Shown here: piece by piece, positions 9,700 to 35,848 of the stretch | Layout of the letters: each line of letters begins with the position of its first letter | How positions within the stretch are numbered: position 1 is the first letter of the stretch | DNA from: Desulfobacteraceae bacterium | GTDB lineage: Bacteria; Desulfobacterota; DSM-4660; Desulfatiglandales; Desulfatiglandaceae | DNA: 38,868 nt | NCBI GenBank assembly: GCA_003599015.1 | Contig: QZIK01000120.1 | Coordinates: 1-38,868, forward strand | Reading direction: 5' to 3' | Made by a program: the position numbers and the translations under genes | The notes under the pieces: generated by a model | Database searches by the model: none | What the model was told of the DNA's origin: nothing | The model's input: the letters and a program-made list of their open reading frames with translations, nothing else

Positions 9700-10965
9700 A
9701 TGGTTGAGATGTCTGAGCATAAAACGACAACGAGCACCGAGGCACTTCTGAGAGGTTTTCGCGTCCTTGACTTGACCACAGATCCGACCGGCCCTTATGC
9801 GGCGCAAAACCTGGCCGGATTAGGGGCTGAGGTGATCAAGATCGAGCGGCCTCATATCGGCGATCCCTGCCGATGGAATCCTCCCTTTGTTGGCCCAAAG
9901 GGAATCGCCTACGAGGTGAAGAATCCTTACGACATCTCGGTTCAGTATCTGAGGCGGAACCGGGGCAAGAAGAGTGTTTTTCTAAACCTGAGGCATGAAA
10001 TGGGGAGGGAACTGTTCAAACGCCTTGTGAAGGTTAGCGATGTCGTTATCGAGAACTTTGCGCCGGGCATTATGGAGGCGAACGACCTGGATTACGACCG
10101 GCTGAAGCAAGTCAATCCGGGCATCGTTTTCTGCTCAGTCTCAGGCTATGGGCAGGACAGTGCTTACAAAGAGAGCCCCGGGTTCGATCTGATGGTTCAG
10201 GCCGCCAGCGGGATTATGGAAATGGAGGGCTCTTTGAACAGATCGAGCATTCGGTGTGGCACATGGGCTGGCCAGATGGTTCCCGCCCTGTGGGCAACCA
10301 TCAGCATCATGGCAGCCCTCCTGTCACGAGAGAAAACAGGCCGCGGAGACTATATCGACATATCCATGCAGGATGCCTGCTTCTCAGCGGCGGCAGACGA
10401 ATTCCTAAAGACATCCTCTTTTCAGAGAACGTTGCTCGGCGAGGATGAAAGTCCATCCAGGCCCGCTCCCTGGAATGTGTATCCGACCCGTAGTGGGCAG
10501 ATCGTCATCTGTGTGGCTCAGAGCAGCCAGTGGTACGCATTCCTGGAGGTAATAGGCAGAGAGGACTTGAGAGACGATCCACGTTTCAAGAGCCAACAGA
10601 TGCGGAGCAGAAACGCAGATGCCATTGATGCCATTACGGCTGCCTGGCTGGAATCGCTGACTGCGGATGAAGCGGTTAATAGGCTCAGAGAAAAGAAAAT
10701 TCCGTGCGAACGGGTTTCTTCATTTGAAAGGGCTATGGCGGACCCTCGTTTGATCTCTAGGAGGATGATCCAGGAAGCGATGCATCCGGTCTATGGAAAG
10801 ACCGGCCTGAAAGCGTCGGGATTTCCGGCCAAATTCTGGAAGGGTAAGGCCGGGTTTTTTTCGCCCGCCCCATATCCTGGACAGCACAATGAAGAGATCT
10901 ACATGGGATTGCTGGGCCTATCAAAGGAGTACATGGAAAGGTTGAAAGAAGAAGAGATCATTTAA
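9700..10965 (+). CDS. Class III (CaiB/BaiF/Frc family) CoA-transferase, BbsE/BbsF-like
   Basis: GFRVLDLTTDPTGPYAAQNLAGLGAEVIKIERP; catalytic Asp context DISMQDA. Confidence 0.92.
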   Translation: MVEMSEHKTTTSTEALLRGFRVLDLTTDPTGPYAAQNLAGLGAEVIKIERPHIGDPCRWNPPFVGPKGIAYEVKNPYDISVQYLRRNRGKKSVFLNLRHEMGRELFKRLVKVSDVVIENFAPGIMEANDLDYDRLKQVNPGIVFCSVSGYGQDSAYKESPGFDLMVQAASGIMEMEGSLNRSSIRCGTWAGQMVPALWATISIMAALLSREKTGRGDYIDISMQDACFSAAADEFLKTSSFQRTLLGEDESPSRPAPWNVYPTRSGQIVICVAQSSQWYAFLEVIGREDLRDDPRFKSQQMRSRNADAIDAITAAWLESLTADEAVNRLREKKIPCERVSSFERAMADPRLISRRMIQEAMHPVYGKTGLKASGFPAKFWKGKAGFFSPAPYPGQHNEEIYMGLLGLSKEYMERLKEEEII

Positions 10966-10970
10966 GGAGG

Positions 10971-12203
10971 ATGACGTATCCCATGCAAAAATACTACCCA
11001 TTGGAAGGGATAAGGGTGCTCGGCCTTGAACAGTACATCGCGGGACCGGACTGTACCATGTGGCTTGCTGATCAGGGCGCGGAAGTTATCAAGATAGAAA
11101 GACCTGGGAGCGGCGATCCGAGAAGAAACTATCTCCCGGAGGTAGAAGATAAGGACGGAAACAAGGCCTACGGGGGATTTGAAGTCTTCAATCGAAACAA
11201 GAAGAGCCTTTCGCTCAATATACAGTCCGAAAAGGGAAAGGCGCTGTTCAAGGAACTGATCAAACATACGGATGTCATTGTGGAAAACATGGCTCCGGGT
11301 ACAATCGAGAAATTAGGCTTGGGATATGATGTGCTTAAAGAAATCAATCCTAGACTCATCTATGCGGCCATCAGCGGCTTTGGGAGATTAGATGAATTGA
11401 AAGGGCCTTATTCAAATTGGCCTGCCTTTGACCCGGTCATTCAGGCAATGGCAGGCATCATGGACCTCATAGGCGAAGAAGGAAAACCACCCTTGTGGGG
11501 GTTTCCCGGACTGGCCGACATGTTCACAGGAGTGGTAACAGGATATGCCATCCTGTTGGCGCTGTTTATGCGAGAGCGAACCGGCGAGGGCCAGTTTATA
11601 GACTCTAGCATGTACGACAGTCTGGTCGCCCTCAATGAAATGGGGATTATGACTTATTCCTTCAGCGGGGAAATCCTTTCAAGGGGATCCGTCCTGCGAT
11701 TTCAGGCGCCAGCAGGGGCGTATCAGCTTAAAGACGGGAGCTATGTGGCCTTCCTTGCTGCCAATGACTTTATTTGGAAGCGTTTCTGCAAGGCCATAGA
11801 ACGGGAAGACCTGATTGAAAACCCAAAAACCGCAACCGGCCCTGAACGGGTCCGGAACAAGGATTTTCTGGAGCCGATCGTTCAGGAATGGATGGTCAGC
11901 AGAGATCGAAAAGAGGTTGTCGGGACGCTTCTTAGAAACGGTGTTCCGGTGGGACCGGTTCAAAACGCAGAAGACCTGGTTCATTGCCCCCACCTCAAGG
12001 CGCGCCAAATGCTTGTCCAAATTGAGCATCCCATTGCCGGGAAACGCGTTTATGCTAAGTCTCCTATTAGAATGACCAAAGCCAAAGACGTCCCAACCCG
12101 TCCATCCCCCACACTGGGCGAACACACGGACGCTATTCTGAAAGATCTGCTGAATTACGACAATGGCACCATTCAAGGCCTTCGAAATGAAGATGTTATT
12201 TAA
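10971..12203 (+). CDS. Class III (CaiB/BaiF/Frc family) CoA-transferase, second subunit/paralogue
   Basis: GIRVLGLEQYIAGPDCTMWLADQGAEVIKIERPGSGDPRR; DSSMYDS; 5-nt gap to the upstream paralogue. Confidence 0.92.
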   Translation: MTYPMQKYYPLEGIRVLGLEQYIAGPDCTMWLADQGAEVIKIERPGSGDPRRNYLPEVEDKDGNKAYGGFEVFNRNKKSLSLNIQSEKGKALFKELIKHTDVIVENMAPGTIEKLGLGYDVLKEINPRLIYAAISGFGRLDELKGPYSNWPAFDPVIQAMAGIMDLIGEEGKPPLWGFPGLADMFTGVVTGYAILLALFMRERTGEGQFIDSSMYDSLVALNEMGIMTYSFSGEILSRGSVLRFQAPAGAYQLKDGSYVAFLAANDFIWKRFCKAIEREDLIENPKTATGPERVRNKDFLEPIVQEWMVSRDRKEVVGTLLRNGVPVGPVQNAEDLVHCPHLKARQMLVQIEHPIAGKRVYAKSPIRMTKAKDVPTRPSPTLGEHTDAILKDLLNYDNGTIQGLRNEDVI

Positions 12204-12237: not shown

Positions 12238-12693
12238 ATGGGAAATGAGAAAGCCGGGAAAAAAATGGGACAGAAAGAGAAGGAAGGAGAGGCAGATATT
12301 ACTTTTTATCATTCCGATCTGGTTGAAGTGCCGACAGACGGGTCTCCTCCATTCTTGAAAGGTTATCGTTGCAAGAGTTGCGGACAGCTTGATTTTCCGA
12401 AGTTAAGCATCTGTCCGGGCTGCTGGGGGGCGGAATTTGAGATGGTTCCTTTGAGCCGTAAAGGGACCCTTTATGCATTTGCTGAGGTCTTCTTAGGTCA
12501 GCCTGGGATGACGTATCCCATGACCATCGGATATGTAGATCTTCCCGAAAACATCCGAATATTTGCTCAGATCGAGGGAAAAGCAGAGCAATTCAACTGC
12601 AATGATGCCGTGGAGTTGACCATCGGGACAATACGAACGAATCGGGATGGTCTGCCCATCACAAGCTACAAATTCAAAAAGGCGGAATCTTAG
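12238..12693 (+). CDS. Zn-ribbon/OB-fold (DUF35) protein, BbsA-like thiolase partner
   Basis: CKSCGQLDFPKLSICPGC zinc ribbon followed by an OB-like region; immediately precedes a thiolase gene. Confidence 0.88.
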   Translation: MGNEKAGKKMGQKEKEGEADITFYHSDLVEVPTDGSPPFLKGYRCKSCGQLDFPKLSICPGCWGAEFEMVPLSRKGTLYAFAEVFLGQPGMTYPMTIGYVDLPENIRIFAQIEGKAEQFNCNDAVELTIGTIRTNRDGLPITSYKFKKAES

Positions 12694-12723: not shown

Positions 12724-13899
12724 ATGAAGCTGGACAGGGATGTCTACATTGCGGGCGTTGGGGAGACCAGATTTGGAAAGCACACATCGGACTTTGATGT
12801 GCTTGGAAGACAGGCTGCCCTGCAAGCCATGAGAGATGCGCATATCGAAAAACCCGGGATCGTTCAAACCGCATACGTTGGAAATGTGCAAAACGGCATT
12901 GTTACCGGACAGATGGTTTTTAAGGATCTCGGGATGTGCGGTGATCTGGCGATCATAAATGTGGAAAGCGCCTGTTCGGCTGGCGGCATGGCGGTATACT
13001 GCGCAGTAAAGGATGTAGCGACAGGAACGGCGGATATCTCTATTGCCGTCGGAACGGAAAACCACAGCCTTACCCGCCAGGCGGGGACGGCGTTTGCCGG
13101 TGCAACCGGCGACATTGAAACCATGCAAGGGCTTGTATTTACTGGCAAATATGCCATGAGGGCCAATCGATATATGTTTGAGACCGGTGCCACACCGGAA
13201 GACCTGGCAATGGTCACGGTCAAAAACAGACGGCAAGCGACCCACAATCCCCATGCCTGGTTCAAAGGCAACATTTCTATCGAAGAGGTTCTAGCCTCTA
13301 GGATGGTTGCCTCTCCGCTGACATTGCAACAATGCTGTGGCATCAGTGATGGAGCCGGCGCCGTTGTAGTTTGTTCAAGAGAGATGACAAAGAACCTTGG
13401 TATCCAGAAACCTGTTAAGGTTAGCGGTGCGGTTGTCTTTTCAGGGCCCTATCACAACAGGCCGAGGGATTTGACCGGTGACGATATCACTGAAATGGCG
13501 GCCAGGAGACTCTATGAAGAATCCGGAATCGGACCGGAGGACGTGAATATCATCGAATTGCACGATGCCTTCACCATAGCTGAAATACTCTATTACGAAT
13601 GTCTCGGACTTTGCAGAAAAGGAGAAGGCATCAAATTTCTGAGGGACGGTGAATCTACCTACGGCGGGAAATGTGTTGTTAGCCCCAGGGGCGGCATGCT
13701 CTCCTACGGACACCCTGTAGGAGCGTCCGGGGCCGCACAGATTGCATCATGCGTCAAGCAGTTGAGAGGAGAATGTGCCGGGTACCAGGTTGAACCGGTC
13801 CCGGCCGTTGCCATGACCCATGTGACGGGAGGGGGAATGTCAGGCACCGAACATGCTGCATGCACCATGCACATGCTGACAAAGGCCTGGCAGGCATAG
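12724..13899 (+). CDS. SCP2-type thiolase / BbsB-like
   Basis: [16 protein letters not shown] (nucleophilic Cys), [24 protein letters not shown]. Confidence 0.9.
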
Positions 13900-14131: not shown

Positions 14132-15604
14132 TTGACCGAATTGGGATTTATCGAAGAGACCCTGCGCGATGGTCAACAGTCTTTGTGGGCGAACAGGATG
14201 ACTACGGAATCCATGCTGCCCGCAGCGCCCATGCTGGATGAGGCAGGATTCAAAAAGGTGCATATCATGAGCGCCTCATGCTTCGAATCCTGTCTGATGT
14301 ACCTTTACGAGGATCCGTGGGAGCGGATGCGCCTTCTCTGCAGCAGGATGCCCCATACGGAGATCATGGTCCTGATTCGGAGCCGGCACACCTTTGGCTG
14401 GGACCGATATCCCAACGATGTCATCGAACTCCTCTTCAAATGCCTGAAGCGGATCGGCATCGGCTGGGTCCTTATATTTGACGGTCTGAATGACATTCGC
14501 AACATGGAGTGGCAGTGTCGAATTGCCCGGGGTGTAGGTCTCAAGGCAGCCCCTGCCATCACCTTCGCAGAGAGTCCCGTTCACACAGACGCATATTATG
14601 CCGACAAGGCGAGTAAGCTTGTTGAGATCGGGGTGGACAGCATATGTCTGGGAGACGCCAGCGGCCTGCTGACGCCTCAAAGGACCCAAACCCTCATCCC
14701 AGCCGTTCGCCAAGCAATCGGCGACAAAACACTGCTGGAATTTTCGGCACACTCGGGAACGGGGCTGAGCAGCGGCTGCTACAGGGAGGCTCTGAAGGCC
14801 GGGGTGGACAGCATCTGCACGACCAGTCTGCCGCTGTCGTATGGGAATTCCATCCCCTCAACTATCGAGGTGATTCAGATGGCCCAAGGACAGGGGCTGA
14901 AGATTGGCCTCGACAGAGACTTGGTGAGCAGGATTGACGATTATTTCTATTGGGTGGCCTATCGAGAGAAACGGGCCACCGGAAAGCCGGTCCGGTTCGA
15001 TCCCGTAGCGTATCACAAATATGCCGGACATCAGATACCGGGCGGTATGATGTCACATTTGGTGAGCCAGTTGAGAGACTTGGGACTGGAACACCGCCTC
15101 CCTGAGGTGCTGGAAGAGGCGGCACGTGTTCGGGAAGAGCTGGGATGGCCGGTGATGGTGACGCCTTTCTCCCAATTCGTAGGTGTACAGGCGGTTTTCA
15201 ATGTGGTCCAGGGAGAGCGATATCTCACCATCCCGGCGGAGCTCTCGCTGTATGCCCGCGGTTATTACGGAGAACTGGCAGCGCCCATCGCACCCAATGT
15301 CCTCGATCGCATTCTCTCCAAGGGGGACTCCGAACCCATGGATCCTCTGGAAAACATCCATGAACCCATGGTCGGAAGGTTCATAAAGGAGAAAGGGCCT
15401 TTCCGGTCGGATGAGGACCTGCTCATGAGCCTGTTCAACACGCCTCAGACACTGGAGAAATATTTCAAGAACAAAAAAACGATCCATACGGAGGCCGTAA
15501 TGGGAACTCCGTTATCCTGTCTGATAAGAGAGCTGGCAAGTCGGCGTGACGTTCGGCGGGTTGCGATTCAAAAAGATAGGTTGAGGCTGGATGTCCGGTA
15601 TTAG
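14132..15604 (+). CDS. PycB/OadA/5S-type carboxyltransferase-like protein (DRE-TIM), atypical active site; TTG start
   Basis: EETLRDGQQSLWANRM, EDPWERMRLL, HQIPGGMMSHLVSQL typical of the family; flanked by BCCP and biotin carboxylase. Confidence 0.88.
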   Translation: MTELGFIEETLRDGQQSLWANRMTTESMLPAAPMLDEAGFKKVHIMSASCFESCLMYLYEDPWERMRLLCSRMPHTEIMVLIRSRHTFGWDRYPNDVIELLFKCLKRIGIGWVLIFDGLNDIRNMEWQCRIARGVGLKAAPAITFAESPVHTDAYYADKASKLVEIGVDSICLGDASGLLTPQRTQTLIPAVRQAIGDKTLLEFSAHSGTGLSSGCYREALKAGVDSICTTSLPLSYGNSIPSTIEVIQMAQGQGLKIGLDRDLVSRIDDYFYWVAYREKRATGKPVRFDPVAYHKYAGHQIPGGMMSHLVSQLRDLGLEHRLPEVLEEAARVREELGWPVMVTPFSQFVGVQAVFNVVQGERYLTIPAELSLYARGYYGELAAPIAPNVLDRILSKGDSEPMDPLENIHEPMVGRFIKEKGPFRSDEDLLMSLFNTPQTLEKYFKNKKTIHTEAVMGTPLSCLIRELASRRDVRRVAIQKDRLRLDVRY

Positions 15605-15635
15605 GGACTTAGGACCATCGAGCGAGTGGAGGCGA

Positions 15636-16202
15636 ATGATGGGGTCAATAGACCATGACGATCTGATTCAAATTTTAGAGATTGTGGGGCACTCTGATAT
15701 TGACGAATTTCGGCTGGAGCTTGGTGAACTTAAATTGTTCCTGAAGAAGTCAAGCGCGGCCCATGCTGATAGAGCGTCCGGTATGCCTGTTCCGGAAAGG
15801 ACAGAAACCGCATCCCTGACGGAAAGGGCAGAACCATCTGAAGAACGAACGACGAGTTCTGGAGCGTCAGGAGAAGTCCTGCCTGAAACGCGCGGAGAAC
15901 CCGAGTCCCGTGAACCGGCAAAGGTGACCGGTTACACAGCCATTAAGGCCCCGCTCTTGGGGACGTTCTACAGGGCGCCTAAACCCGGGGCACCGCCCTT
16001 TGTTACAGAAGGCCAGTCTGTGATCGAGGATGACACCCTGTGCATCATCGAGGTCATGAAACTCTTCAATACCATCAAGGCAGGCATCAAGGGCACCATC
16101 AAGGAAATCTGTGCGGAAGACGGGCAATTGGTGGAGTTTGACCAGACGCTGTTTTGGGTGGAAGAGGACCCTAAGCAAGAACTGAGGGAGGCTCAGGCCT
16201 GA
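15636..16202 (+). CDS. accB: Biotin carboxyl carrier protein (AccB-like)
   Basis: C-terminal biotinyl domain CIIEVMKLFNTIKAG; AccB-like N-terminus; ATG at 15636 with RBS ggagg (ORF track extends to 15591). Confidence 0.9.
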   Translation: MMGSIDHDDLIQILEIVGHSDIDEFRLELGELKLFLKKSSAAHADRASGMPVPERTETASLTERAEPSEERTTSSGASGEVLPETRGEPESREPAKVTGYTAIKAPLLGTFYRAPKPGAPPFVTEGQSVIEDDTLCIIEVMKLFNTIKAGIKGTIKEICAEDGQLVEFDQTLFWVEEDPKQELREAQA

Positions 16203-17554
16203 TGGGCAGTATCTCGAGGGTGTTTGTTGCGAACCGCGGTGAAATTGCCCTGCGGATCATCCGTGCCTGCCGGGAGATGGGCATAGAATCGGTGTTGGGG
16301 GTATCGAATGTGGACAAGAATAGCCTGCCCGCCAAGATGGCCGACCGAGTGGTCTGCATCGGGCCCCATCCACCCCTGCAGAGCTACCTCAAAGTAGGGA
16401 CGCTCATTACCGCCGCCCTTGGCACCGGTGCGGATGCCATCCATCCAGGGTATGGCTTTCTCGCAGAGCAGCCGGAGTTGGGAGAAGCATGCATGCACAA
16501 CGGGCTCATCTTCATCGGTCCGAAACCGGAAAACATCCGGCAGATGGGGGACAAACTGGTCGCGAGGGAAATGGTCAGAGATCTCGGCGTCCCTGTCATT
16601 CCCGGTTCTGAACTGGTGCACGATGCGAAAGAGGCCGGTGCGATGGCTGAAAAGGTCGGGTTCCCTGTTCTTCTAAAAGCGGCGGCCGGCGGTGGCGGCA
16701 AAGGGATGAAGATGGTCAGGAACCCAAGCGAGTTGAAATCGGTCTTTGAAGAGGCTTCAGCCGAGGCCCGGGCCGCATTCGGGGATGACAGGATCTATAT
16801 CGAGCACCTGATCGCGAACGCTCGGCACATCGAGGTCCAGATCCTTGCAGACCGGTATGGAAATGTGATTCACCTGTTTGAGCGTGATTGTTCGCTGCAG
16901 CGCCGGTATCAAAAGATGGTGGAGGAAGCCCCATCTCCTGCGGTAACGTCCGATATGCGTGAAAAAATCACACAGGCGGCGGTCGCCATTGCACAACATG
17001 TCAACTACGAGAATGCGGGCACTATCGAAATGGTTCTGGACCAGGATCAGGGAAAATTTTACTTCCTTGAGATGAACACGCGAATCCAGGTTGAACATCC
17101 TGTGACAGAAATGATCACCGGTAAGGACCTTGTCAAGGAACAGATTCGAATCGCGTCCGGAAACCCGATCAGTTTCACCCAGGAAGAAATTTCCATTAAG
17201 GGGCACGCCGTTGAATGCCGAATCAATGCCGAGAAACCTGACGCTAATTTCATGCCGCACCCTGGTCGGATTTTGAGCTGGACCCCACCGGAAGGACATG
17301 GAATTCGAATTGATAGCCACTGTTATTCAGGTTATTTCGTGCCGCCCTATTATGATTCCCTTCTTGCCAAACTGATCACAACGGGAGTCAACCGTTCCAA
17401 GGCCATTCATCGCATGGAGGACGCCCTTGCGAATTTTGATGTCAAAGGTGTGGAAACCACGATCCCCTTTTACCGGAAGGTCATGAACCATCCGGATTAT
17501 CTGAATGGACGGATACATACGCGGTGGGTAGAGGAGGTCTTCCTGAACCGGTGA
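16202..17554 (+). CDS. accC: Biotin carboxylase (AccC-like)
   Basis: VFVANRGEIALRIIRACREMGI, LKAAAGGGGKGMKMV, FLEMNTRIQVEHPVTE; TGATG overlap with the BCCP gene. Confidence 0.96.
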   Translation: MGSISRVFVANRGEIALRIIRACREMGIESVLGVSNVDKNSLPAKMADRVVCIGPHPPLQSYLKVGTLITAALGTGADAIHPGYGFLAEQPELGEACMHNGLIFIGPKPENIRQMGDKLVAREMVRDLGVPVIPGSELVHDAKEAGAMAEKVGFPVLLKAAAGGGGKGMKMVRNPSELKSVFEEASAEARAAFGDDRIYIEHLIANARHIEVQILADRYGNVIHLFERDCSLQRRYQKMVEEAPSPAVTSDMREKITQAAVAIAQHVNYENAGTIEMVLDQDQGKFYFLEMNTRIQVEHPVTEMITGKDLVKEQIRIASGNPISFTQEEISIKGHAVECRINAEKPDANFMPHPGRILSWTPPEGHGIRIDSHCYSGYFVPPYYDSLLAKLITTGVNRSKAIHRMEDALANFDVKGVETTIPFYRKVMNHPDYLNGRIHTRWVEEVFLNR

Positions 17555-17654: not shown

Positions 17655-18500
17655 ATGTCTATTGTTACCATAACGACAGGGTTTTACGGGAAAGGCCAGG
17701 AAGTCGCAGAGAAAGTCGCAAGCAGGCTCGACTATCGATGCATATCGAGAGAGACACTTCTCCATGCCTCGGACGGACTCAATCTCCCGGTATTAAGGGC
17801 CTTCCTGTCCTTTCGAAAAGGGCCTTCCGATATCGAGTTGACCAGCGCGGAGAAGGAAAAATACATCGCCGGCGTTCAGCTTCTGCTGTTGAGCGATTAT
17901 CAGAAGGACAATGTCGTCCACCATGGCATGGCAGGCCACTTCATTGTCAGGGGAGTCGAACATGGTCTGAAGGTCTTGATTATGCAGGATATCGAGGACC
18001 GGATGCGGTCTTGCATGGAGCAGGAGGGATTGTCCCGTAAAGATGCCTTGATCTATCTGAAGGAGAGAGACCATCCCCTTATCGAATGGGGGTTTCATCT
18101 ATACGGTATTCATCCCTGGGATTCAGACCTCTATGACTTGGCTATCCACCTCAAAAGGATCTCCGTTGATGCTGCGGTGGATATGATCTGCCGCACCGTC
18201 GCGCTCGACGTTTTCCAGACAACACCAGGATCCCAACGGCATGTCGATGACCTTCTCCTTGCTGCCAGGGCAAAGTGGGAGATCAGGGATATCAATCCCT
18301 ATGCGGACGTCTCGGCTCATGATGGTTCACTAACCGTAAGGGCTGTCCTGGACGGTGCGTCAGGCACATCTGTTGAAGAAAGAGACCGACTCACCGAGGA
18401 GATACAAGCGGCTGTAACAAAAATCCCTGGCGTAACGGAAGTCAGGATCGATGCAGCATTGTATCCGATAAGGGATATGGTGGAGGAAGGAACGCCATGA
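17655..18500 (+). CDS. Cytidylate-kinase-like family protein
   Basis: TTGFYGKGQEVAEKVASRLDYRCISRETLL N-terminus typical of the family; C-terminal BON-like extension. Confidence 0.75.
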   Translation: MSIVTITTGFYGKGQEVAEKVASRLDYRCISRETLLHASDGLNLPVLRAFLSFRKGPSDIELTSAEKEKYIAGVQLLLLSDYQKDNVVHHGMAGHFIVRGVEHGLKVLIMQDIEDRMRSCMEQEGLSRKDALIYLKERDHPLIEWGFHLYGIHPWDSDLYDLAIHLKRISVDAAVDMICRTVALDVFQTTPGSQRHVDDLLLAARAKWEIRDINPYADVSAHDGSLTVRAVLDGASGTSVEERDRLTEEIQAAVTKIPGVTEVRIDAALYPIRDMVEEGTP

Positions 18501-19285
18501 CTATTGTCGCCGGCTGTGATGTAGGCTCGATTACCGGCAAAACCGTCATTTTGGATGGGGGCGAGATCATTTCGTCCAGTGTCGTACCCTCTCGACCCCT
18601 GCCTGCCAGAACAGCCGCTGATACCATGGGCCAGGCCCTTGAGAAGGTGGGTCTCGACCTCAAAGACGTGAAGTATGTGGTGGGGACCGGCTACGGAAGG
18701 GTTAAAATTCCCTTTGCAAACAAGACGGTTTCGGAAATTGCCTGCCATGCCAAGGGAGCCGCATGTCTGATGGGGACAGCCGGAACCCTTATCGACATCG
18801 GCGGACAGGACTGTAAGGCAATTGCTCTGGATGAAAAGGTCCGGGGGAAGGTTAAGAGTTTTGTCATGAACGACAAATGCGCGGCAGGGACCGGGAGATT
18901 CCTCGAGGTTATGGCCGCGGTTTTTGAAATCAATGTCGATGAGATGGGTCCGCTGGCTGTCCAAGCCAAGAAGATCGTCCCCATATCCAGTCAGTGCAGT
19001 GTTTTCGCCGAGAGTGAAGTGATCAGCCTCATTGCCGAAGAAAACGATCGAGCGGATATCTTGGCAGGCGTTTGTGATTCCGCGGCAGGCAGGATTATCT
19101 CTCTGGTAGGCAGGGTCGGGCTGAGAGAAGACGTCATTATTTCAGGTGGGGTCGGTAAAAATATCGGCGTGGTCAGGGCAATAGAGAGAAGACTGGGCAT
19201 TGAAATGAAGCGTCTGCCGGGTGATCCACAGATCGTTGGGGCCCTGGGCGCGGCTATCATCGCCCAGGAAATGAGCCTTAAATAG
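18497..19285 (+). CDS. 2-hydroxyacyl-CoA dehydratase / benzoyl-CoA reductase-type ATPase activase (HgdC/BcrD family)
   Basis: GCDVGSITGKTVIL, IDIGGQDCKAI, NDKCAAGTGRFLE, SSQCSVFAESEV (two FeS-ligand Cys); 4-nt overlap with the upstream gene. Confidence 0.94.
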   Translation: MTIVAGCDVGSITGKTVILDGGEIISSSVVPSRPLPARTAADTMGQALEKVGLDLKDVKYVVGTGYGRVKIPFANKTVSEIACHAKGAACLMGTAGTLIDIGGQDCKAIALDEKVRGKVKSFVMNDKCAAGTGRFLEVMAAVFEINVDEMGPLAVQAKKIVPISSQCSVFAESEVISLIAEENDRADILAGVCDSAAGRIISLVGRVGLREDVIISGGVGKNIGVVRAIERRLGIEMKRLPGDPQIVGALGAAIIAQEMSLK

Positions 19286-21575: not shown

Positions 21576-21631
21576 TTGATGTGCTACGGTCTGCTTGATC
21601 CCAGCCCACCTGCGAAAAAAAGGAGTTGACG

Positions 21632-22762
21632 ATGGAAGTTCTCGATCAGTTGGAGGCCTTAGCCTCTGAAAATCCCAATTCAGCGGCCAAGGCGTGGAAG
21701 GATGACGGCAAAAAGATTGTCGGGTACTGGTGCTCCTATGTTCCCCAGGAGCTGATGCACGCAGCCCATGTATTTCCCTACCGCATCAGAGGCACCGGCG
21801 CGAGGAGTACCGGAAGGGCCGACGTGTACATGGCCGCTGTCTGCAACTGCACTTATCCTCGTGCTGCCCTCGAGCTTGCACTCGACGGAACCTATGATTT
21901 TATCGACGGCATGGTAGGAGCGAATGAATGCGATCACGGACGCCGGGCATACGAAATCTGGGTGGAAAAAAAGGGCATCCCGTTTCACCATTTCCTCTTT
22001 GTTCCACATAAGATCGATGACTCAGTGCTGGCGGAATTCCAGAAAGAGCTTCTCAAATTCAAGGTCCACCTTGAGAATCGCTTTCACACGTTCATCACAG
22101 ATGATGCGCTGTTCAAGTCCATCCGCCTCTATAATGAGAACCGGAGGCTGCTTAAGACGCTTCAGGAAGGCATGAAGAAAGAGCAGCCACTTATGAAGGG
22201 ATCTGAATTGAACACGGTGATTGTGGCGGGCGTTTGTACGCCTCCTGAGCAATATAATCAGCTCCTAAAACAGTTACTGGAGGACCTGAGACATCGCAAA
22301 CCGATGGACAGGCCAAGGGCCAGACTCATGATCTATGGCTGGATCGGAGATAATTCCGGGTTTCACAGGCTCGTGGAAGATGTGGGCGGACTGGTGGTTG
22401 CGGATAACTGCTGCTACGGCACGAGAGATTTCTGGGAACCCGTCGAAACTGATGGCGATCCTCTAAAAGGCATCGCACGGTCATATCTTTATCGCCCCAC
22501 ATGCGCCCGTATGATGGGCGAATTGAACAGCAGGCTTGCCTATGCGAAGAATATGATTCAGGAGTTCGCCGTGGACGGCGTCCTTATCACAAGACATCAG
22601 TTTTGCGACATTCATGGTTCAGAGGCTTTTTCACTGAAGCGGCACGAGAATGAGATGGGCGTCCCGTTTTCAGCCCCTTTGATTCAGGAATACCTCGGCG
22701 AAGATGCGGGGCGGTTGAAGACCCGCATCGAGGCCTTTATTGAACAGATAGAAAGTAATTAA
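21632..22762 (+). CDS. 2-hydroxyacyl-CoA dehydratase family small subunit, BcrC/HgdB-like (pair 1)
   Basis: GYWCSYVPQELMHAAHVFPYRI, VCNCTYPRA, NECDHGRRAYEIW, ADNCCYGTRDFWE, FCDIHGSEAFSLK; RBS aaggag before ATG 21632. Confidence 0.93.
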   Translation: MEVLDQLEALASENPNSAAKAWKDDGKKIVGYWCSYVPQELMHAAHVFPYRIRGTGARSTGRADVYMAAVCNCTYPRAALELALDGTYDFIDGMVGANECDHGRRAYEIWVEKKGIPFHHFLFVPHKIDDSVLAEFQKELLKFKVHLENRFHTFITDDALFKSIRLYNENRRLLKTLQEGMKKEQPLMKGSELNTVIVAGVCTPPEQYNQLLKQLLEDLRHRKPMDRPRARLMIYGWIGDNSGFHRLVEDVGGLVVADNCCYGTRDFWEPVETDGDPLKGIARSYLYRPTCARMMGELNSRLAYAKNMIQEFAVDGVLITRHQFCDIHGSEAFSLKRHENEMGVPFSAPLIQEYLGEDAGRLKTRIEAFIEQIESN

Positions 22763-22778
22763 ATTCGGGAGAAAAGGG

Positions 22779-24098
22779 ATGACATCCAAGAGAGATATTA
22801 TTTTCAAAGAGTTTGACTTTTCCAAAAAACCGGAACTCAAAACAGACCTGCTTCATACCATACAATATGCCATCAAATCGGCCATCTCCCAAAGGGATCC
22901 AGTCATGCAGTGGATCTGGCAGCCTTCCATCAACGCGATCGATGACATGTGTGCCGCAGCGGAAGATCCGACCGATGTGGTTCTTATAGGATTTAACCTG
23001 GCACCCGAAATGATCTATGCCATGGGATTGAAACCTGTTTGCCCGGAAGGCTTGTCATTCCTTTGCCCCACCGAGTATCTGATCCCTTATATCGACGAGT
23101 CCCACAAGGCATTCATCCCGGACCACCTCTGCTCTTTTCTTAGCGGTTCCATCGGAATGGCCATATCCAACGCCATACCCAAACCGGTGGCCATAGTCCA
23201 CACCTCTCAGCCCTGTGACAACTCCATCGCACAGAGCACCGCGTTGGCTGACTTTTATGGTGTGGAACCTTACATCATTGATTCACCTTATTACGACAAT
23301 GATGAAGCGTATGACTATTTCGCTGTGCAGATCAAAGAAGGCTTTCGTTATCTGGAACAGATGACAGGGAAAAAGCTCGATATCGACAGATTTCGCGAAG
23401 TCATGGCGCGATCCCAGCGGGCCCACGAACTGGTGCATGAGATCAATGAGCTCAAGAAAAGAAAGCCATGCCCGATACCGACGGGCGCGATCTTGCGCCA
23501 GCTGAGTATCGGGATGTACGGCCAGACCGGCAGCGAGCACCTGGTTCGCTGGCTGGAGAAACACCTTGAAGATGCTCGAGAGCGCGCCCATAAAGGAATC
23601 GGCGGGCAGCACGAGGAAAAGATCCGAACCGCCTGGATCTACGCATGGCCCAGTTTTGAATGGACTATATACGAATGGCTGGGAAAGAAATACGGGGCCA
23701 TTCCGGTGATATTTCAGGCGTCAGAGTATTTTTACACGCCGAAGAGCTCCGGGGATTTTGATGATCTGTGCAGGTCTCTGGCCATCCGGATCCTGAGTTG
23801 CCCCATGGGTAGATCGAGCCGGGGGCACCTAGATTATTTTGTACGCGATTCAGCCTATTGGTGCAAGGAATGGAGCATTGATGCGGCTATATTTGCGGGG
23901 CATCTCCAGTGCAAGGCCAACTGGTCCGTTGCCCAGATTACCAAGGAGGTCCTCATGGATGAACTGGGTGTCCCAATGCTCAGTTTTGTTGTGGATGCCC
24001 TGGATCCCCGCGTCACTTCCACGGAGCAGATGCTGGGGTATATCGAGCCCTTTCTTGAGATGGTCGCTGAAAACAAGGAGTTGGAAAAGATCGGTTGA
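22779..24098 (+). CDS. 2-hydroxyacyl-CoA dehydratase family large subunit, BcrB/HgdA-like (pair 1)
   Basis: APEMIYAMGLKPVCPEGLSFL, DHLCSFLSG, SQPCDNS, GHLQCKANW; 16-nt gap to its partner. Confidence 0.92.
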   Translation: MTSKRDIIFKEFDFSKKPELKTDLLHTIQYAIKSAISQRDPVMQWIWQPSINAIDDMCAAAEDPTDVVLIGFNLAPEMIYAMGLKPVCPEGLSFLCPTEYLIPYIDESHKAFIPDHLCSFLSGSIGMAISNAIPKPVAIVHTSQPCDNSIAQSTALADFYGVEPYIIDSPYYDNDEAYDYFAVQIKEGFRYLEQMTGKKLDIDRFREVMARSQRAHELVHEINELKKRKPCPIPTGAILRQLSIGMYGQTGSEHLVRWLEKHLEDARERAHKGIGGQHEEKIRTAWIYAWPSFEWTIYEWLGKKYGAIPVIFQASEYFYTPKSSGDFDDLCRSLAIRILSCPMGRSSRGHLDYFVRDSAYWCKEWSIDAAIFAGHLQCKANWSVAQITKEVLMDELGVPMLSFVVDALDPRVTSTEQMLGYIEPFLEMVAENKELEKIG

Positions 24099-24103
24099 TG
24101 AAG

Positions 24104-24120
24104 TGCCTCTGCCAGAGGCA
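24104..24120. repeat. Near-perfect palindrome tgcctctg-c-cagaggca between pair 1 and pair 2
   Basis: Perfect 8-bp arms around a single C in the 77-nt intergenic gap. Confidence 0.6.
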
Positions 24121-24175
24121 TTGTAGATGCTATTTTTTAAGAGAAAATTGTTAGAGAGCAGACAGGGGATTCACC

Positions 24176-25303: not shown

Positions 25304-25321
25304 CTGCAAGTGGGAACAACA

Positions 25322-26795: not shown

Positions 26796-28358
26796 ATGAA
26801 TTTAGGTAGATACATATCGCGCAGTTCGCTCCACTACTCGGACAAGGTCTGTTTGGTTCACGGTAAAAGGCGTTATTCTTATAGAGAGTTTGAGCAGAGG
26901 GCGAATAGCCTCGCTCGAGGACTCATGCATCTCGGACTGATGCGAGGGGATCGGCTGGCGGTTCAGTCCTGGAATCGCTCTGAAATGATTGAAATCGAGG
27001 TCGCCTGTTACAAGGCCGGCATTGTTCGTGTCCCGATGAATGCGCATCTTTCGCCATCAGAATCCGTGCACGTCCTCAACGACTCAGAGACGAAGGCAGT
27101 CATAGCGGATCCCATGCACATGGACCATATTCTTCAACATAAATCCAGCATTCCTAAAATAGAATATCTCATCTGTCTCGAAAATACCCCCGCCGGCGTG
27201 CTTGATTACGAAAAAACTATCGCTCAGTCATCTGTGGAGATGCTCGATATCGACCTGGATCCTTCCGAACTGGCCGTGCTTGCCTACAGCTCAGGAACAA
27301 CCGGCAAAATGAAGGCCGTCATGCAGAGTTTCGCCAACCGGTTGGCCATGATCCGAAAGGCGTTGATGATTCCAGGCCTGTCCATTGAGCCAGGAGATGT
27401 CTTTGTCCATGCGGGTCCCATTTCGCATGCCAGCGGGATGTGGTCGATGCCCATGATGTTCCGAGGTGGCTGCAACCTTGTTCTGGAGCGCTTCAATGTC
27501 GAAAAGTTCCTGGAAGCTGTTCAGGAGGAAAAGGCGAGCCTCACCTTACTGGTTCCAACCATGATCCATATGCTTCTGGATTTTCCTGAGAGCAGGAACT
27601 ATGACCTGAGCAGTCTCAAGCGGGTGTTCTATGGGGCTGCACCGATTTCAAAAACCAGGCTGAGGCAGGCCATTGATGAGCTGTTCGGCTCTATCCTGAT
27701 TCAGGGGTACGGCATGACGGAGACCACTTCTGCAATTACGATCCTGACCTCGAAGGACCATCTGGATGCCTTGAGGGAAGATCATCAGGACAGACTGGCC
27801 TCCTGTGGAAGGCCCTGCTTCGACACCGAAGTGAAGGTGGTGGATGAGGCCGGCGGTGAGGTCTCCACCGGGGAGATCGGCGAGATTATTGCGCGCGGAC
27901 CGGATGTGATGGTGGGGTATTACAAGGATGCAGAATTGACCAAGGCAACGATCCGGGGAGGCTGGGTCCACACGGGGGATATGGCCAGAGTTGACGATGA
28001 GGGATACATCTATATCGTGGATCGCAAGTCTGAGACCATCATTTCGGGGGGATTCAACGTCTACCCTTCCGAAGTGGAGGGCGTGCTTTACGCCCACCCG
28101 GCTGTCTTTGAAGCGTGTGTGGTGGGCGTCCCTGATGAGAAATGGGGAGAGGCCGTCAAAGCCGTCGTCGTTGTCAAGAAAGGATGCGTTGTTACGGAGC
28201 AGGCATTGATGGATCACTGCAAGGCATTCCTGGCCGGATACAAGAAGCCTCAATCCATTGATTTTGTAAATGACCTCCCGAAGAATCCCAGCGGAAAAAT
28301 CCCCCGTCGGGTCGTCAGGGAAAAATACTGGCGGGATAGAGATCGAAAATTGATCTGA
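26796..28358 (+). CDS. AMP-forming acyl-CoA ligase/synthetase
   Basis: AYSSGTTGKMKAVMQS, QGYGMTETTS, GWVHTGDMARVDDEGYIYIVDRKSETIISGGFNVYPSEVE, PKNPSGKIPRR. Confidence 0.95.
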   Translation: MNLGRYISRSSLHYSDKVCLVHGKRRYSYREFEQRANSLARGLMHLGLMRGDRLAVQSWNRSEMIEIEVACYKAGIVRVPMNAHLSPSESVHVLNDSETKAVIADPMHMDHILQHKSSIPKIEYLICLENTPAGVLDYEKTIAQSSVEMLDIDLDPSELAVLAYSSGTTGKMKAVMQSFANRLAMIRKALMIPGLSIEPGDVFVHAGPISHASGMWSMPMMFRGGCNLVLERFNVEKFLEAVQEEKASLTLLVPTMIHMLLDFPESRNYDLSSLKRVFYGAAPISKTRLRQAIDELFGSILIQGYGMTETTSAITILTSKDHLDALREDHQDRLASCGRPCFDTEVKVVDEAGGEVSTGEIGEIIARGPDVMVGYYKDAELTKATIRGGWVHTGDMARVDDEGYIYIVDRKSETIISGGFNVYPSEVEGVLYAHPAVFEACVVGVPDEKWGEAVKAVVVVKKGCVVTEQALMDHCKAFLAGYKKPQSIDFVNDLPKNPSGKIPRRVVREKYWRDRDRKLI

Positions 28359-30172: not shown

Positions 30173-31246
30173 ATGAAAAAGGGCAAATTGACAATGGGTG
30201 CTTTGGCGGTCTGTATCCTGTTTTCCGTCTTGGCAGCGCCCGGCGTCCGTGCGGAGGAGGTCATCGAGTTAAAGGCAGCCACATGGCTTCCCACATCCCA
30301 TCCGGTCTACCAGCAGGTTTTCATCCCCTGGGGACAACTGATCGAGAAAAGGAGCAAGGGGCGGGTTAAATTCGCCTGGTTTCCGGACGGATCCCTGGTC
30401 AAGGCTGAGCAACATCTCAGCGCCATCAAAGGCGGCATGGTGGATGTGTTGACGCCGATGGCGCTTTGGACGGTGGACAAGCAATTTCCAATTATTTCGG
30501 CCATATTCATGCCTTTCCAGGTGGACAACGAAACCCACGCCTCCCTGTCTTTCTACGATGCGTTCCAACAGATGCCGGAAATCCGGGAGGAGTTGAAGGG
30601 AATAAAGATGGTTGGTTTTTCGTCGTCGGGGATGGGTAATTTTCACACGAAGGGGTTCCTGGTCAAAACAGCGGCAGATTTCAAGGGGAAGCGCATTTGG
30701 CCCGCCAACAGCATAGGGGTGGAGTCGTGCAAGCTTTGGGGTGCCGTACCCACTCTTGTCAAGGTCTCCGATATCTACATGTCGTTGCAGAGGGGAACTT
30801 TGGATGGCATTTTCTTCCCAACCCCGCCGCTCAGCGACTTTCGTTTTACAGATCTGATTAATAACCATACATTATGCGGCTACTCCCTGGCAGCTCAACC
30901 TGTGACCATGAACCAGGCCAGGTGGGATTCCCTCCCCCCCGATATCCAGAAGATCTTCGACGAACTTACGCTCCCTCTCAGCATTGCCATCGGAAACAAG
31001 TTCGAGGAAATGAATGAGCATATTGTTCGGGAACTCAAGAAACGGAGTGATAATATCTACATATTTTCCCCGAGCGAAAAACAGGAATGGAGGGCCAGTA
31101 TTCAACCGATCTTTGACACTCAGGCGGCGGCCATCACTGCGACAGGCCGCGATGGCAAGGGGGTCATGAATAGAATCCAAAACATTGTAACAGAGGCCAG
31201 GAAAAAACCTTTCAAGGTGAATCAGGACTGGCAGGTAGTGAAGTAG
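30173..31246 (+). CDS. dctP: TRAP transporter substrate-binding protein DctP (copy 1)
   Basis: Signal peptide; SHPVYQQVFIPWGQLIEKRSKGRVKFAWFPDGSLVKAEQ; ADFKGKRIWPANS; next to DctQM. Confidence 0.92.
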   Translation: MKKGKLTMGALAVCILFSVLAAPGVRAEEVIELKAATWLPTSHPVYQQVFIPWGQLIEKRSKGRVKFAWFPDGSLVKAEQHLSAIKGGMVDVLTPMALWTVDKQFPIISAIFMPFQVDNETHASLSFYDAFQQMPEIREELKGIKMVGFSSSGMGNFHTKGFLVKTAADFKGKRIWPANSIGVESCKLWGAVPTLVKVSDIYMSLQRGTLDGIFFPTPPLSDFRFTDLINNHTLCGYSLAAQPVTMNQARWDSLPPDIQKIFDELTLPLSIAIGNKFEEMNEHIVRELKKRSDNIYIFSPSEKQEWRASIQPIFDTQAAAITATGRDGKGVMNRIQNIVTEARKKPFKVNQDWQVVK

Positions 31247-31266
31247 GGGGACACGGGCAAGGTGAA

Positions 31267-31320
31267 CCACCATTGAAGCGACCTGGAAAGGTGACTTTTT
31301 CGGATCAGGAAGTGGTGTGA
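31267..31320 (+). pseudogene. Remnant of the fumarase beta 3' end (PPLKRPGKVTFSDQEVV*) before the second dctP
   Basis: Aligns without gaps to 30007-30060 (PIPALKRLGEVTSPAQEVV* end), including cattgaagcg, gtgac and tcaggaagtggtgt(g/a)a. Confidence 0.8.
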
Positions 31321-31430
31321 TAACGAGCGATAAGGCGCCAAGGGAGGTGAGAGACAAGGAGTTGCGGCAATCGGAGGGTGTTTGGGGGATTAGAAAAACA
31401 TTATCAGAATAAGTCATTAAGGAGGCGGAG

Positions 31431-32507
31431 ATGAAAAAGGGCAAATTGATGATAGGCGTTTTGGTAGTCAGTATCCTGTTGTCTGTTTCGGCGGTCGGTG
31501 CCGTCCGCGCTGCCGATGTCATCGGGTTAAAGGCAGCCACATGGTTTCCCACATCCCATCCGGTCTATCAGCAGGTCTTGATTCCCTGGGGACAGCTCGT
31601 CGAGAAGAGGAGCAATGGCCGGGTCAAATTTGTATGGTTTCCGGATGGATCTCTGGTCAAAAACGAGCAGGGTCTCAGCGCCATCAAGGGCGGTATGGTG
31701 GACGTGATGGCGCCTCTGTCCATATGGGCATTTGATAAGCAGTTTCCCATCGTCACCGCCATATACATGCCCATGCAGTTGGACAGCGAGACCCATGCAT
31801 CCAGGTCCTTTTACGACGCGTTCCAGCGAATGCCGGAGATACGGGAGGAATGCAAGGGGATGAAAATCGTGGGATTCGCATCCTCAGGGATCGCCAACTT
31901 CCACATGAAGGATATCCTCGCGAAGACCCCGTCGGATTTCAAGGGACAGCGCGTATGGCCTGCCAACAGCATCGGGGTACAATGTGCCAAGCTGTGGGGA
32001 GCCGTGCCCACCCTTGTCAAGATGGCCGACATCTATATGTCGCTTCAGAGGGGAACCCTGGATGGCGTGTGGTTTCCCACTCCCCCGATCGCCGATTTCC
32101 GCTTCACCGACATGATCAAAAACCATACGCTTTGTGGCTTCTGCGCCGGCTCACAGGCCGTCGTCATCAACCAGGCCAAATGGGATTCCCTCCCATCCGA
32201 TATCCAAAAGATCTTCGACGAACTTACGCTCCCTCTCAGCATTGCCATCGGCAACAAGTTCGGGGAAATGAATGACCATATTATAGGGGAACTCAGGAAA
32301 CGGGGCGACAACATCTATGTGCTCTCTCGGAAAGAAAAGGACGAGTGGAGAGCAAGCATTCAACCTATCTTCGACGCTCAGGCGGCTGACATCACCGCCG
32401 CAGGTAGGGACGGCAAGGCCATCATGGCTAAGATCCAGACCATTGTCGCAGAAGCCAGGGAAAAACCCTCCAAGGTGACTCAGGACTGGCAGGTAGTGAA
32501 GGAGTAA
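31431..32507 (+). CDS. dctP: TRAP transporter substrate-binding protein DctP (copy 2, tandem paralogue)
   Basis: High similarity to 30173-31246 along the full length; signal peptide. Confidence 0.92.
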   Translation: MKKGKLMIGVLVVSILLSVSAVGAVRAADVIGLKAATWFPTSHPVYQQVLIPWGQLVEKRSNGRVKFVWFPDGSLVKNEQGLSAIKGGMVDVMAPLSIWAFDKQFPIVTAIYMPMQLDSETHASRSFYDAFQRMPEIREECKGMKIVGFASSGIANFHMKDILAKTPSDFKGQRVWPANSIGVQCAKLWGAVPTLVKMADIYMSLQRGTLDGVWFPTPPIADFRFTDMIKNHTLCGFCAGSQAVVINQAKWDSLPSDIQKIFDELTLPLSIAIGNKFGEMNDHIIGELRKRGDNIYVLSRKEKDEWRASIQPIFDAQAADITAAGRDGKAIMAKIQTIVAEAREKPSKVTQDWQVVKE

Positions 32508-32649
32508 GGATACTTCTAACCTTGGAAGGGAAGAAGGGGCTGAAAGGAAGACCATTGTGTTATTAATGGGCTATATTTCTTCCAGCCTTGTTCACAGAGG
32601 GACATGGGGATGGACAGTAGGGGAACTACATAGAGACGGCGGGGGATTT

Positions 32650-34605
32650 ATGGAAGTGCAGCGTTCGATTGCACATGTTTTTAGTAATTTTCTGCTGGAT
32701 TGCGCATCGGCCCTTGAAAAACCATTGGGATATGTGAGCAGCAAATGCGTAGCTCTGGCGTCCCTTCTTTCTCTGGGTATGGCCGTTTTCATTATCCTGG
32801 ATATTGCCCTCAAGTATCTGTTCGAGGCACCCATGCACTTTATCATCGAGGGAGAGACTTTTCTTTTGGTGATGGTGACCTTTCTAACCATTGCCGAAAC
32901 CCAGAGGAACGGCAGACACGTTTCTGTGGATCTCTTTACCATAGGTCTTCCTATCAAGGTCCGGCTTTTCAACAGCACGATTTTTTCCATTTTCGGTATT
33001 TTCCTCTTCGTGATTGTAAGCTGGCAGTTGTTCCAAAGAGGGTTGCAGGAATACTCAGACGGTGCGAAAAGCTTGATTTCTCATATTCCTTTTTTTCCTT
33101 TTTCATTTTTGGCCGCCTTTGGATGTGTGCTTTTGTCCCTGGTTCTTTTCAAGGAGCTGTTAGAAAAGCTTGGCCGATCCTTTTCGACATACAGGCGGCC
33201 CTTTTTTATCCTGGCTGTGATACTGATTCTGTCTGCAGTCATCATGACGCTTCCGATCGCGTACCAAACTTTTGGCATTCAGGTAGGAAGAAATGCCCTA
33301 GGCGTGGTGATGCTGGGGTTTGCTCTTGTGCTCATGTTCTTTGGTTTTCCTGTAGCCTTTACTATGGCCTTTGTCGGACTCTTGGGAACGTGGTTTCTGG
33401 CCGGCCGGGATATCTCTTTCGGATTTACTCGGCTGGCTGCATTTGACAGTGTGGCGGAATACTATTTATGCGTAATCCCCTTTTTTATTCTCATGGGGTT
33501 GTTCTGCCTGGGTGCGGGCATCAGCAAGGATTTGTTTCGTGCTGCCCATAGATGGGTGGGTGCAATGCCGGGTGGTCTGGCCATTTCAACTGTGATCGGC
33601 TGTGGGGGCTTTGCGGCCATATGTGGGGACAGCATGGCCAATGCAGCCACCATGGGCGCTGTGGCGCTTCCTGAGATGAAGAAGTACCAGTATCAGGATT
33701 CCCTGGCCACCGGTTCCGTGGCTGCCGGGGGCACGCTGGGGATACTGATTCCACCCAGCATTGGGTTTATCGCGTATGGCGTTGTTACCCAAGAGTCTGT
33801 GGGCAAGCTCTTCATGGCCGGCATCCTCCCTGGAATCATTCTGATTCTTTTCTTTTGCGCAACTATCTTTCTCCGGTGCAAGCTGAATCCCACCCTGGGG
33901 CCGGCGGCAGAGCCATGCTCCTGGAGAGAGAAGGTACGCTCACTCCAAGGAGCCTGGCAGGTGGTGCTGCTGTTTGCCGCAGTCATGGGAGGCATCTATT
34001 CAGGGGTGGTGACCCCTACCGAAGCCGGGGGTGTAGGGGTGATCGGCGCTCTGATCCTGGCCCTGTTTTCCTCTGAGTTCACCTGGAAGAAAATGGTTGA
34101 CTCGCTGACGGACGGCATTCAGATGTCCGCCATGATCATCACCATGCTGATTGGGGTAGCCATTCTCAACAACTTTATTGTGCTGACCGAAATGCCTTCT
34201 CGTCTGTCCGATTTTCTTCAATCCATGAACCTCGCCCCGTATGCCTTTTTTGTTTGCGTCATGCTGCTTTATCTGGTCATGGGGATGGTGATGAACATCA
34301 TCCCCATGATCATAGTCACCCTGCCCATTATCTTTCCCTCGATCGTCGCCATGGGTTTCGATCCCATCTGGTTTGGGGTGGTGATGGTCATCATGATGGA
34401 AATGGGCCAGATCTCGCCACCCGTGGGGATCAATGTCTTCGTGATTGCAGCGGTAGCCAAGGATGTGCCAATGCAAAGAATCTTCCTTGGGATACTGCCC
34501 TTCATCTTTTGCGAGGTAGCGGTCATTGTTCTCTTGACCTTCTTCCCCAAGATCGCACTCTTCCTCCCCAGCCTCATGGAGGTGCTGCCGCCTATAATAA
34601 GATGA
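32650..34605 (+). CDS. dctQM: TRAP transporter fused DctQ-DctM permease (ORF track start 32557)
   Basis: Small-subunit DctQ-like N-terminus then DctM-like PFFILMGLFCLGAGISKDLFRAAHRWVGAMPGGLAISTVIGCGGFAAICGDS; RBS gggggatt before ATG 32650. Confidence 0.9.
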   Translation: MEVQRSIAHVFSNFLLDCASALEKPLGYVSSKCVALASLLSLGMAVFIILDIALKYLFEAPMHFIIEGETFLLVMVTFLTIAETQRNGRHVSVDLFTIGLPIKVRLFNSTIFSIFGIFLFVIVSWQLFQRGLQEYSDGAKSLISHIPFFPFSFLAAFGCVLLSLVLFKELLEKLGRSFSTYRRPFFILAVILILSAVIMTLPIAYQTFGIQVGRNALGVVMLGFALVLMFFGFPVAFTMAFVGLLGTWFLAGRDISFGFTRLAAFDSVAEYYLCVIPFFILMGLFCLGAGISKDLFRAAHRWVGAMPGGLAISTVIGCGGFAAICGDSMANAATMGAVALPEMKKYQYQDSLATGSVAAGGTLGILIPPSIGFIAYGVVTQESVGKLFMAGILPGIILILFFCATIFLRCKLNPTLGPAAEPCSWREKVRSLQGAWQVVLLFAAVMGGIYSGVVTPTEAGGVGVIGALILALFSSEFTWKKMVDSLTDGIQMSAMIITMLIGVAILNNFIVLTEMPSRLSDFLQSMNLAPYAFFVCVMLLYLVMGMVMNIIPMIIVTLPIIFPSIVAMGFDPIWFGVVMVIMMEMGQISPPVGINVFVIAAVAKDVPMQRIFLGILPFIFCEVAVIVLLTFFPKIALFLPSLMEVLPPIIR

Positions 34606-34705
34606 TGCGGTATTATATCCTCTATTTTGTTTATTAAGTACAGGGGCTGCCTTAAAGCGCAAGTGGAAGGTGAAACCAATTACATATTTTTAGAAAGGAA
34701 CAGTG

Positions 34706-35839: not shown

Positions 35840-35848
35840 GGGGAGACA

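Follow-up and report, generated by a model that had tools for sequence, protein, structure and literature searches.

A PycB-like carboxyltransferase without the carbamyl-lysine, encoded beside its own biotin carboxylase and a BbsAB-like thiolase

The 490-residue carboxyltransferase (CT) encoded in the window, by which we mean the whole 38,868-nucleotide stretch of DNA analysed here, is, judged by its sequence, a variant of the biotin-dependent ketone carboxylases with an eroded metal site. Together with the BCCP and the biotin carboxylase (BC) encoded directly behind it, this protein very probably forms a functional carboxylase that acts on a substrate other than pyruvate. By analogy with characterized systems, we favor a pathway in which a keto acid is carboxylated and subsequently cleaved by thiolysis, to which we assign a probability of roughly 0.55.

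The carboxyltransferase and its metal site

A metal site formed by a carbamylated lysine, two histidines and an aspartate is standard in this carboxyltransferase family. An earlier note on this DNA had claimed that the window CT has lost the lysine (Gly at 14651-14653) and the first metal-binding histidine (Ser at 14744-14746), and the alignments and a structure model bear out both losses. Residue 174 is Gly where OadA, 5S and pyruvate carboxylase (PC) have the carbamylated Lys, and residue 205 is Ser where these proteins have the first His of the HxH pair, which reads S205-A-H207 and therefore contains a single His. The metal ligands Asp13 and His207 are retained and, in a 53-row alignment, so are R12, Q16, R83, D117 and S308. 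The register was consistent across phmmer alignments to 2nx9, used as the OadA reference, and 1rqb, used as the transcarboxylase 5S reference, the 53-row alignment and the structure model. This AlphaFold2 model, calculated with 42 window and locus sequences as input and the plasmid rows left out, has a pLDDT of 93.8 and adopts the 5S/OadA fold. The changed positions lie on the expected strands, with G174 ending strand 170-175 and S205 ending strand 201-206, and the nearest solved folds found by Foldseek are 5S and OadA (TM 0.83-0.86). In view of this model and its closest solved structures, the alignment register can be considered safe. The alignments, which could have spoken against the earlier claim, place neither a Lys nor a second His of the HxH pair in the metal site; nor is there an alternative Lys near Gly174 within its strand. 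The open reading frame is real and both orthologues described below share its start residue; since they also agree on the losses, a sequence or alignment error was ruled out.

In profile searches, the window CT scored over the cut-offs of PF00682 and PF02436, but under those of every PycB, OadA, PC and 5S model, the best score being 386.6 bits against 402 for PRK09282, and far under those of the equivalog models for PycB, OadA and 5S. The protein thus shares with PycB, OadA and 5S the fold, the PYC_OADA domain and residues R12, D13, Q16, D117, H207 and S308, but differs from them in lacking the carbamyl-Lys and the first metal His, in belonging to a separate clade, and in being flanked by dedicated BC, BCCP and CoA genes.

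Relatives and the spread of lysine loss

Relatives of the window CT were gathered from GTDB species and from plasmids. Two orthologues with 60-61% identity were found (L096/L123 in genome G214 and L097/L124 in G230), both in other families of the same phylum. They are changed at the same two positions, in line with a clade that shares the losses, but position 174 is Ala and position 205 Val, rather than Gly and Ser, and His207 is retained in both. His309, directly following Ser308, is common to the window CT and the two orthologues; in the 50 other homologues compared, this residue is Asn, Thr or Ser. Orthologues are rare: a search of 84 further genomes of the class, 7 further ones from the order of G230 and 23 from that of G214 returned none, the gene is missing from the genus-mate G001, and the viral contigs searched held no relative. 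The cluster looks like an accessory one that was probably transferred.

A sister group of about 4-5 members from Actinomycetes and Rhodobacterales (L004-L007, L084) has Asn instead of Asp13 and Thr or Ser instead of the Lys, and keeps both His; L008, listed with this group, has Glu and Gln instead. An M29-peptidase-like protein is encoded near several of these CT genes (L004-L007, L084). A second Lys-less clade carries Glu or Tyr (L027, L028, L063, L087, L093, L094, L091, L017 and others). Tyr for Lys coincides with Asn for the second metal His in the CTs at L017:7785-9443 and L091:8001-9458, and Lys is replaced by Glu in the CTs of L027, L028, L063, L102, L104-L106 and L111 (longer loci L056, L057, L129, L131, L135 and L138). 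At L056, L057, L131 and L135, an HMG-CoA-synthase-like protein is encoded near the Glu-carrying CT, with a thiolase, BC and UPF0261 (Tm-1-like) protein in varying combination. A literature search on Lys-less CTs, which largely reached papers available without subscription, returned nothing relevant.

In a tree built with the signature columns omitted, with support given as SH-aLRT values from a short search, the window CT and its two orthologues group together (97) and then join the sister group (98). This Lys-less branch sits in a 49-row superclade (99) that includes the HpeB-like CT of plasmid locus L095 and leaves 18 PycB/OadA-like rows outside. On sequence grounds, Lys loss in these clades tracks with the ketone-carboxylase branch, not with pyruvate carboxylase. 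The earlier statement that the protein is not a pyruvate carboxylase is supported both by its scores under all PycB/OadA/PC/5S cut-offs and by this position outside the PycB/OadA clade (99% SH-aLRT). What the note did not contain is that the nearest characterized kin, HpeB, are ketone carboxylases and that the neighboring thiolase is BbsAB. A single origin of all Lys losses was set aside, as the best tree requires two changes of the Lys, though a p-AU of 0.081 leaves a joint origin unrejected.

Gene cluster and comparison with known systems

The cluster is encoded on one strand in the order CaiB1, CaiB2, BbsA, BbsB, CT, BCCP, BC (Table 1). As claimed before, a cognate BCCP and biotin carboxylase adjoin the CT. 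The BC and BCCP genes share a single base. The gap between the CT and BbsB genes is 232 bp, so that the cluster may have more than one transcript. Behind BC follow genes for a cytidylate-kinase-like protein, a BcrAD-type activase, a CooC-like ATPase and an acyl-CoA dehydrogenase and, further on, three HgdB/C-type pairs, an acyl-CoA ligase, a fumarase-like hydratase and a TRAP transporter. The ligase is possibly a further member of the pathway, and the transporter possibly takes up its substrate. The cytidylate-kinase-like protein (17655-18500) has an extra C-terminal region, and its gene shows a 4-base overlap with the activase gene. This activase (18497-19285) is the single one in the stretch that holds the three HgdB/HgdC-type pairs, which belong to the 2-hydroxyacyl-CoA dehydratase/benzoyl-CoA reductase family and lie at 21626-26638 and 34703-37189.

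Table 1. Genes of the window that are discussed in connection with the carboxyltransferase
Feature	Position	Strand	Remarks
CaiB1, class III CoA-transferase	9700..10965	+	PF02515; Asp motif FDLMVQA
CaiB2, class III CoA-transferase	10971..12203	+	Asp motif FDPVIQA
BbsA-like Zn-ribbon/OB-fold (DUF35) thiolase subunit	12238..12693	+	59% identical to BbsA chain of 7pxp
BbsB-like benzoylsuccinyl-CoA thiolase subunit	12724..13899	+	75% identical to BbsB chain of 7pxp
Carboxyltransferase (CT), 490 aa	14132..15604	+	HMGL-like barrel and PYC_OADA domain; TTG start
BCCP, biotinylation motif EVMKL	15591..16202	+	TIGR00531 118.9 bits, cut-off 115.2
BC subunit	16202..17554	+	TIGR00514 648 bits, cut-off 626.5; 68% identical to BC beside L123 CT
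AMP-forming acyl-CoA ligase	26796..28358	+	63% identical to ligase of L123 cluster
TRAP-type organic-acid transporter	30173..34605	+	two DctP-like binding proteins, DctQM fusion

The L123 locus repeats much of this content, with CaiB2 (74%), a thiolase of the PaaJ type, BCCP, CT (60%), BC and the ligase, together with a DASS anion symporter. The CaiB2 orthologue adjoins the orthologous CT in L123, and none with this identity was found in the other genomes searched for CaiB2; CaiB1 homologues with 50-63% identity adjoin Lys-keeping CT genes (L051-L053, L125, L132 and L133). CaiB2 resembles BbsEF less closely than it does succinyl-CoA:mesaconate and succinate:hydroxymethylglutarate CoA-transferases. 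In manual counts, for which flank lengths differed, some loci were near-duplicates and the PycB loci came mostly from one order, BC or BCCP was found beside the CT in 36 of 44 superclade loci versus none of 25 PycB-clade loci, and a CoA-transferase, thiolase, CoA ligase or kinase in 26 of 44 versus 1 of 25.

The biotin-dependent HpeCBA of Rhodococcus rhodochrous GD02 carboxylates 4-phospho-acetovanillone and 4-phospho-acetophenone using one ATP (PMC9618137), and its CT, HpeB, is ~51% identical to XccC of Aromatoleum EbN1 (PMC9618137; PMC8461187). HpeCBA, XccBCA of Aromatoleum EbN1 and AcvCDE of Sphingobium SYK-6 are, like the window system, made up of BC, BCCP and a PycB-like CT, and a CT of the same clade with a dedicated BC and BCCP, one of the marks of aryl-ketone carboxylases, is found in the window as well. 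The beta-keto acid formed by HpeCBA is later activated with CoA and then cleaved (PMC9618137), which resembles the route proposed below. The plasmid locus L095 has the hpe gene order with matching protein sizes, and its HpeB-like CT keeps the Lys and HxH, with Thr at 83 and Gly at 308; ketone carboxylation alone therefore needs no Lys loss. This locus contains a kinase and a phosphatase that are absent from the window, where no open reading frame matches HpeH, HpeI or HpeD of L095. Plasmid operons of Rhodococcus pyridinivorans and R. oxybenzonivorans (CTs at L087:7527-9449 and L093:7662-9452) have the order BCCP-BC-CT-DUF35-thiolase-phosphatase, with adjoining genes for PEP-utilising, kinase-like enzymes. 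By content they resemble the window in that a Lys-less CT is followed by a DUF35-thiolase pair, but their CT has Glu instead of Lys, keeps both His and belongs to the other Lys-less clade. As one of the hosts is named R. oxybenzonivorans, an aryl-ketone route is plausible for these operons.

The BbsB of the window scores above the NF053628 equivalog cut-off (762.1 versus 750 bits), and BbsA falls just short of that of NF053627 (240.7 versus 250 bits). Both resemble Geobacter BbsAB (7pxp) in sequence, but in the window they adjoin a carboxylase rather than BbsC, BbsD and BbsH, homologues of which were not found in the window, and the CoA-transferases belong to another class III branch than the BbsEF of the Bbs system. 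A toluene pathway was considered and rejected, in view of these missing genes and because only one glycyl radical enzyme turned up in the 66%-complete genome and its score does not mark it as BssA. No oah gene, a marker for the steps downstream of benzoyl-CoA, scored over its cut-off in this 66%-complete genome, and a benzoyl-CoA pathway could therefore not be confirmed. The 837-aa glycyl radical enzyme at L078:7728-10241 (G000:C110) scores under every named-family cut-off, and two MmdA-like carboxyltransferases and acyl-CoA dehydrogenases are encoded beside it.

Proposed route and alternatives

Carboxylation of biotin by BC is standard, and the residue roles in CO2 and proton transfer are those of PC. 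Arg12, Gln16, Arg83 and Ser308 of the window CT correspond to residues that bind pyruvate in PC, with Ser308 at the position of T882. Since Arg12, Gln16, Arg83, Asp117 and Ser308 are kept, CO2 and proton transfer could run as in PC. In the proposed mechanism, CT, BCCP and BC would form an ATP-driven biotin-dependent carboxylase of the ketone-carboxylase superclade, on the side of HpeCBA, Xcc and Acv. BC would carboxylate the biotin on BCCP, and the CT would transfer the CO2 onto the carbon adjacent to the ketone of an imported organic acid, yielding a beta-keto acid. CaiB1 or CaiB2 would then load CoA from succinyl-CoA onto this acid, after which the BbsAB-type thiolase would cleave the beta-ketoacyl-CoA. 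In the active site, only Asp13 and His207 would be left of the four metal ligands, possibly with a contribution from His309. The carbonyl would probably be held by Arg12, Gln16 and Arg83, while Ser308 would relay the proton. Polarisation of the carbonyl by a metal would either be lost or be provided by the changed site (Asp13, His207 and perhaps His309); a metal ion may also be bound via other ligands. In the HpeB-like protein, Thr and Gly take the places of Arg83 and Ser308; that the window CT has kept both suggests an acceptor that bears a carboxylate. The earlier proposal of a biotin-dependent enzyme with an altered metal site and a different acceptor agrees with this, considering the dedicated BC and BCCP, the other catalytic residues that are kept, and the equivalent substitutions in the orthologues.

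The organic-acid transporters (TRAP in the window, DASS in L123), the succinyl-CoA-type CoA-transferases and BbsAB make the order keto acid, beta-keto acid, CoA ester and thiolysis the most economical one, and the recurrence of CaiB, thiolase, CT, BCCP, BC and ligase in L123 supports it, as does the CT beside a DUF35-thiolase pair in the two Rhodococcus plasmid operons. Analogy supports the first steps well and the substrate weakly. Because BbsAB releases an acyl-CoA and succinyl-CoA, a candidate substrate would be a gamma-keto acid, R-CO-CH2-CH2-COOH, for example 3-benzoylpropionate (R aryl) or levulinate (R alkyl), which would be carboxylated to an acylsuccinate, and the succinyl-CoA from thiolysis could be reused as CoA donor. 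An acylsuccinate product is a tentative suggestion, drawn from this analogy, and it is somewhat more doubtful still that the whole chain operates, with a CT that needs no carbamyl-Lys, whose metal site has two ligands or is missing, and that converts a gamma-keto acid to an acylsuccinate for cleavage by BbsAB in an undescribed anaerobic route. In L123, a PaaJ-type thiolase stands in place of BbsAB, which may confine the acylsuccinate idea to the window, if it is right at all.

The CT might instead act on a CoA thioester or on a different keto acid, with BbsAB belonging to a separate route, such as the downstream part of a benzylsuccinate-type pathway. There is perhaps one chance in a few for this, as many CoA-ester enzymes are mixed in the operon, the thiolase of L123 differs in type, and a related genome has a canonical bbs operon (L079) whose BbsB is 81% identical to that of the window, so that the window BbsAB may be a remnant of toluene degradation. 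The lack of BbsC, BbsD and BbsH homologues in the window, the failure of the one glycyl radical enzyme detected in the 66%-complete genome to score as BssA, and the recurrence of a CT beside a DUF35-thiolase in Rhodococcus all weigh against it. A CT that runs in reverse or as a transcarboxylase, loading biotin with CO2 drawn from a beta-keto acid like an oxaloacetate decarboxylase, would fit OadA and 5S as closest solved relatives, but is improbable, because the overlap of the BC and BCCP genes argues for ATP-driven carboxylation and the window proteins that were scanned include no OadB-type membrane subunit. The absence of two of the four metal ligands could also mark a decaying or non-catalytic paralogue that serves only as a scaffold. 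We consider this even less probable, given a full-length open reading frame with the other checked active-site positions conserved, the pair of orthologues from other families with matching small residues and the shared His309, and a cluster that holds no other CT. Finally, an enzyme that still uses pyruvate or oxaloacetate, as the retained Arg12, Gln16, Arg83 and Ser308 might imply, is hardly credible for a protein that falls outside the PycB/OadA clade, scores under all PycB/OadA/PC cut-offs, and shares its genome with a standard Lys-keeping PycB-like gene (L001).

The loss of the Lys is more general than the earlier note said, and not a one-off of the window CT. Natural clades without the carbamyl-Lys site, of which one comes with a readable gene cluster, offer a direct way to test the role of the metal, and the cluster points to a carboxylation-then-thiolysis route for which a concrete first set of substrates can be named. 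The findings also suggest that database labels reading "pyruvate carboxylase subunit B" on such genes are wrong. If the proposed route is true, the CT and BbsAB would together constitute an anaerobic keto-acid route not described so far.
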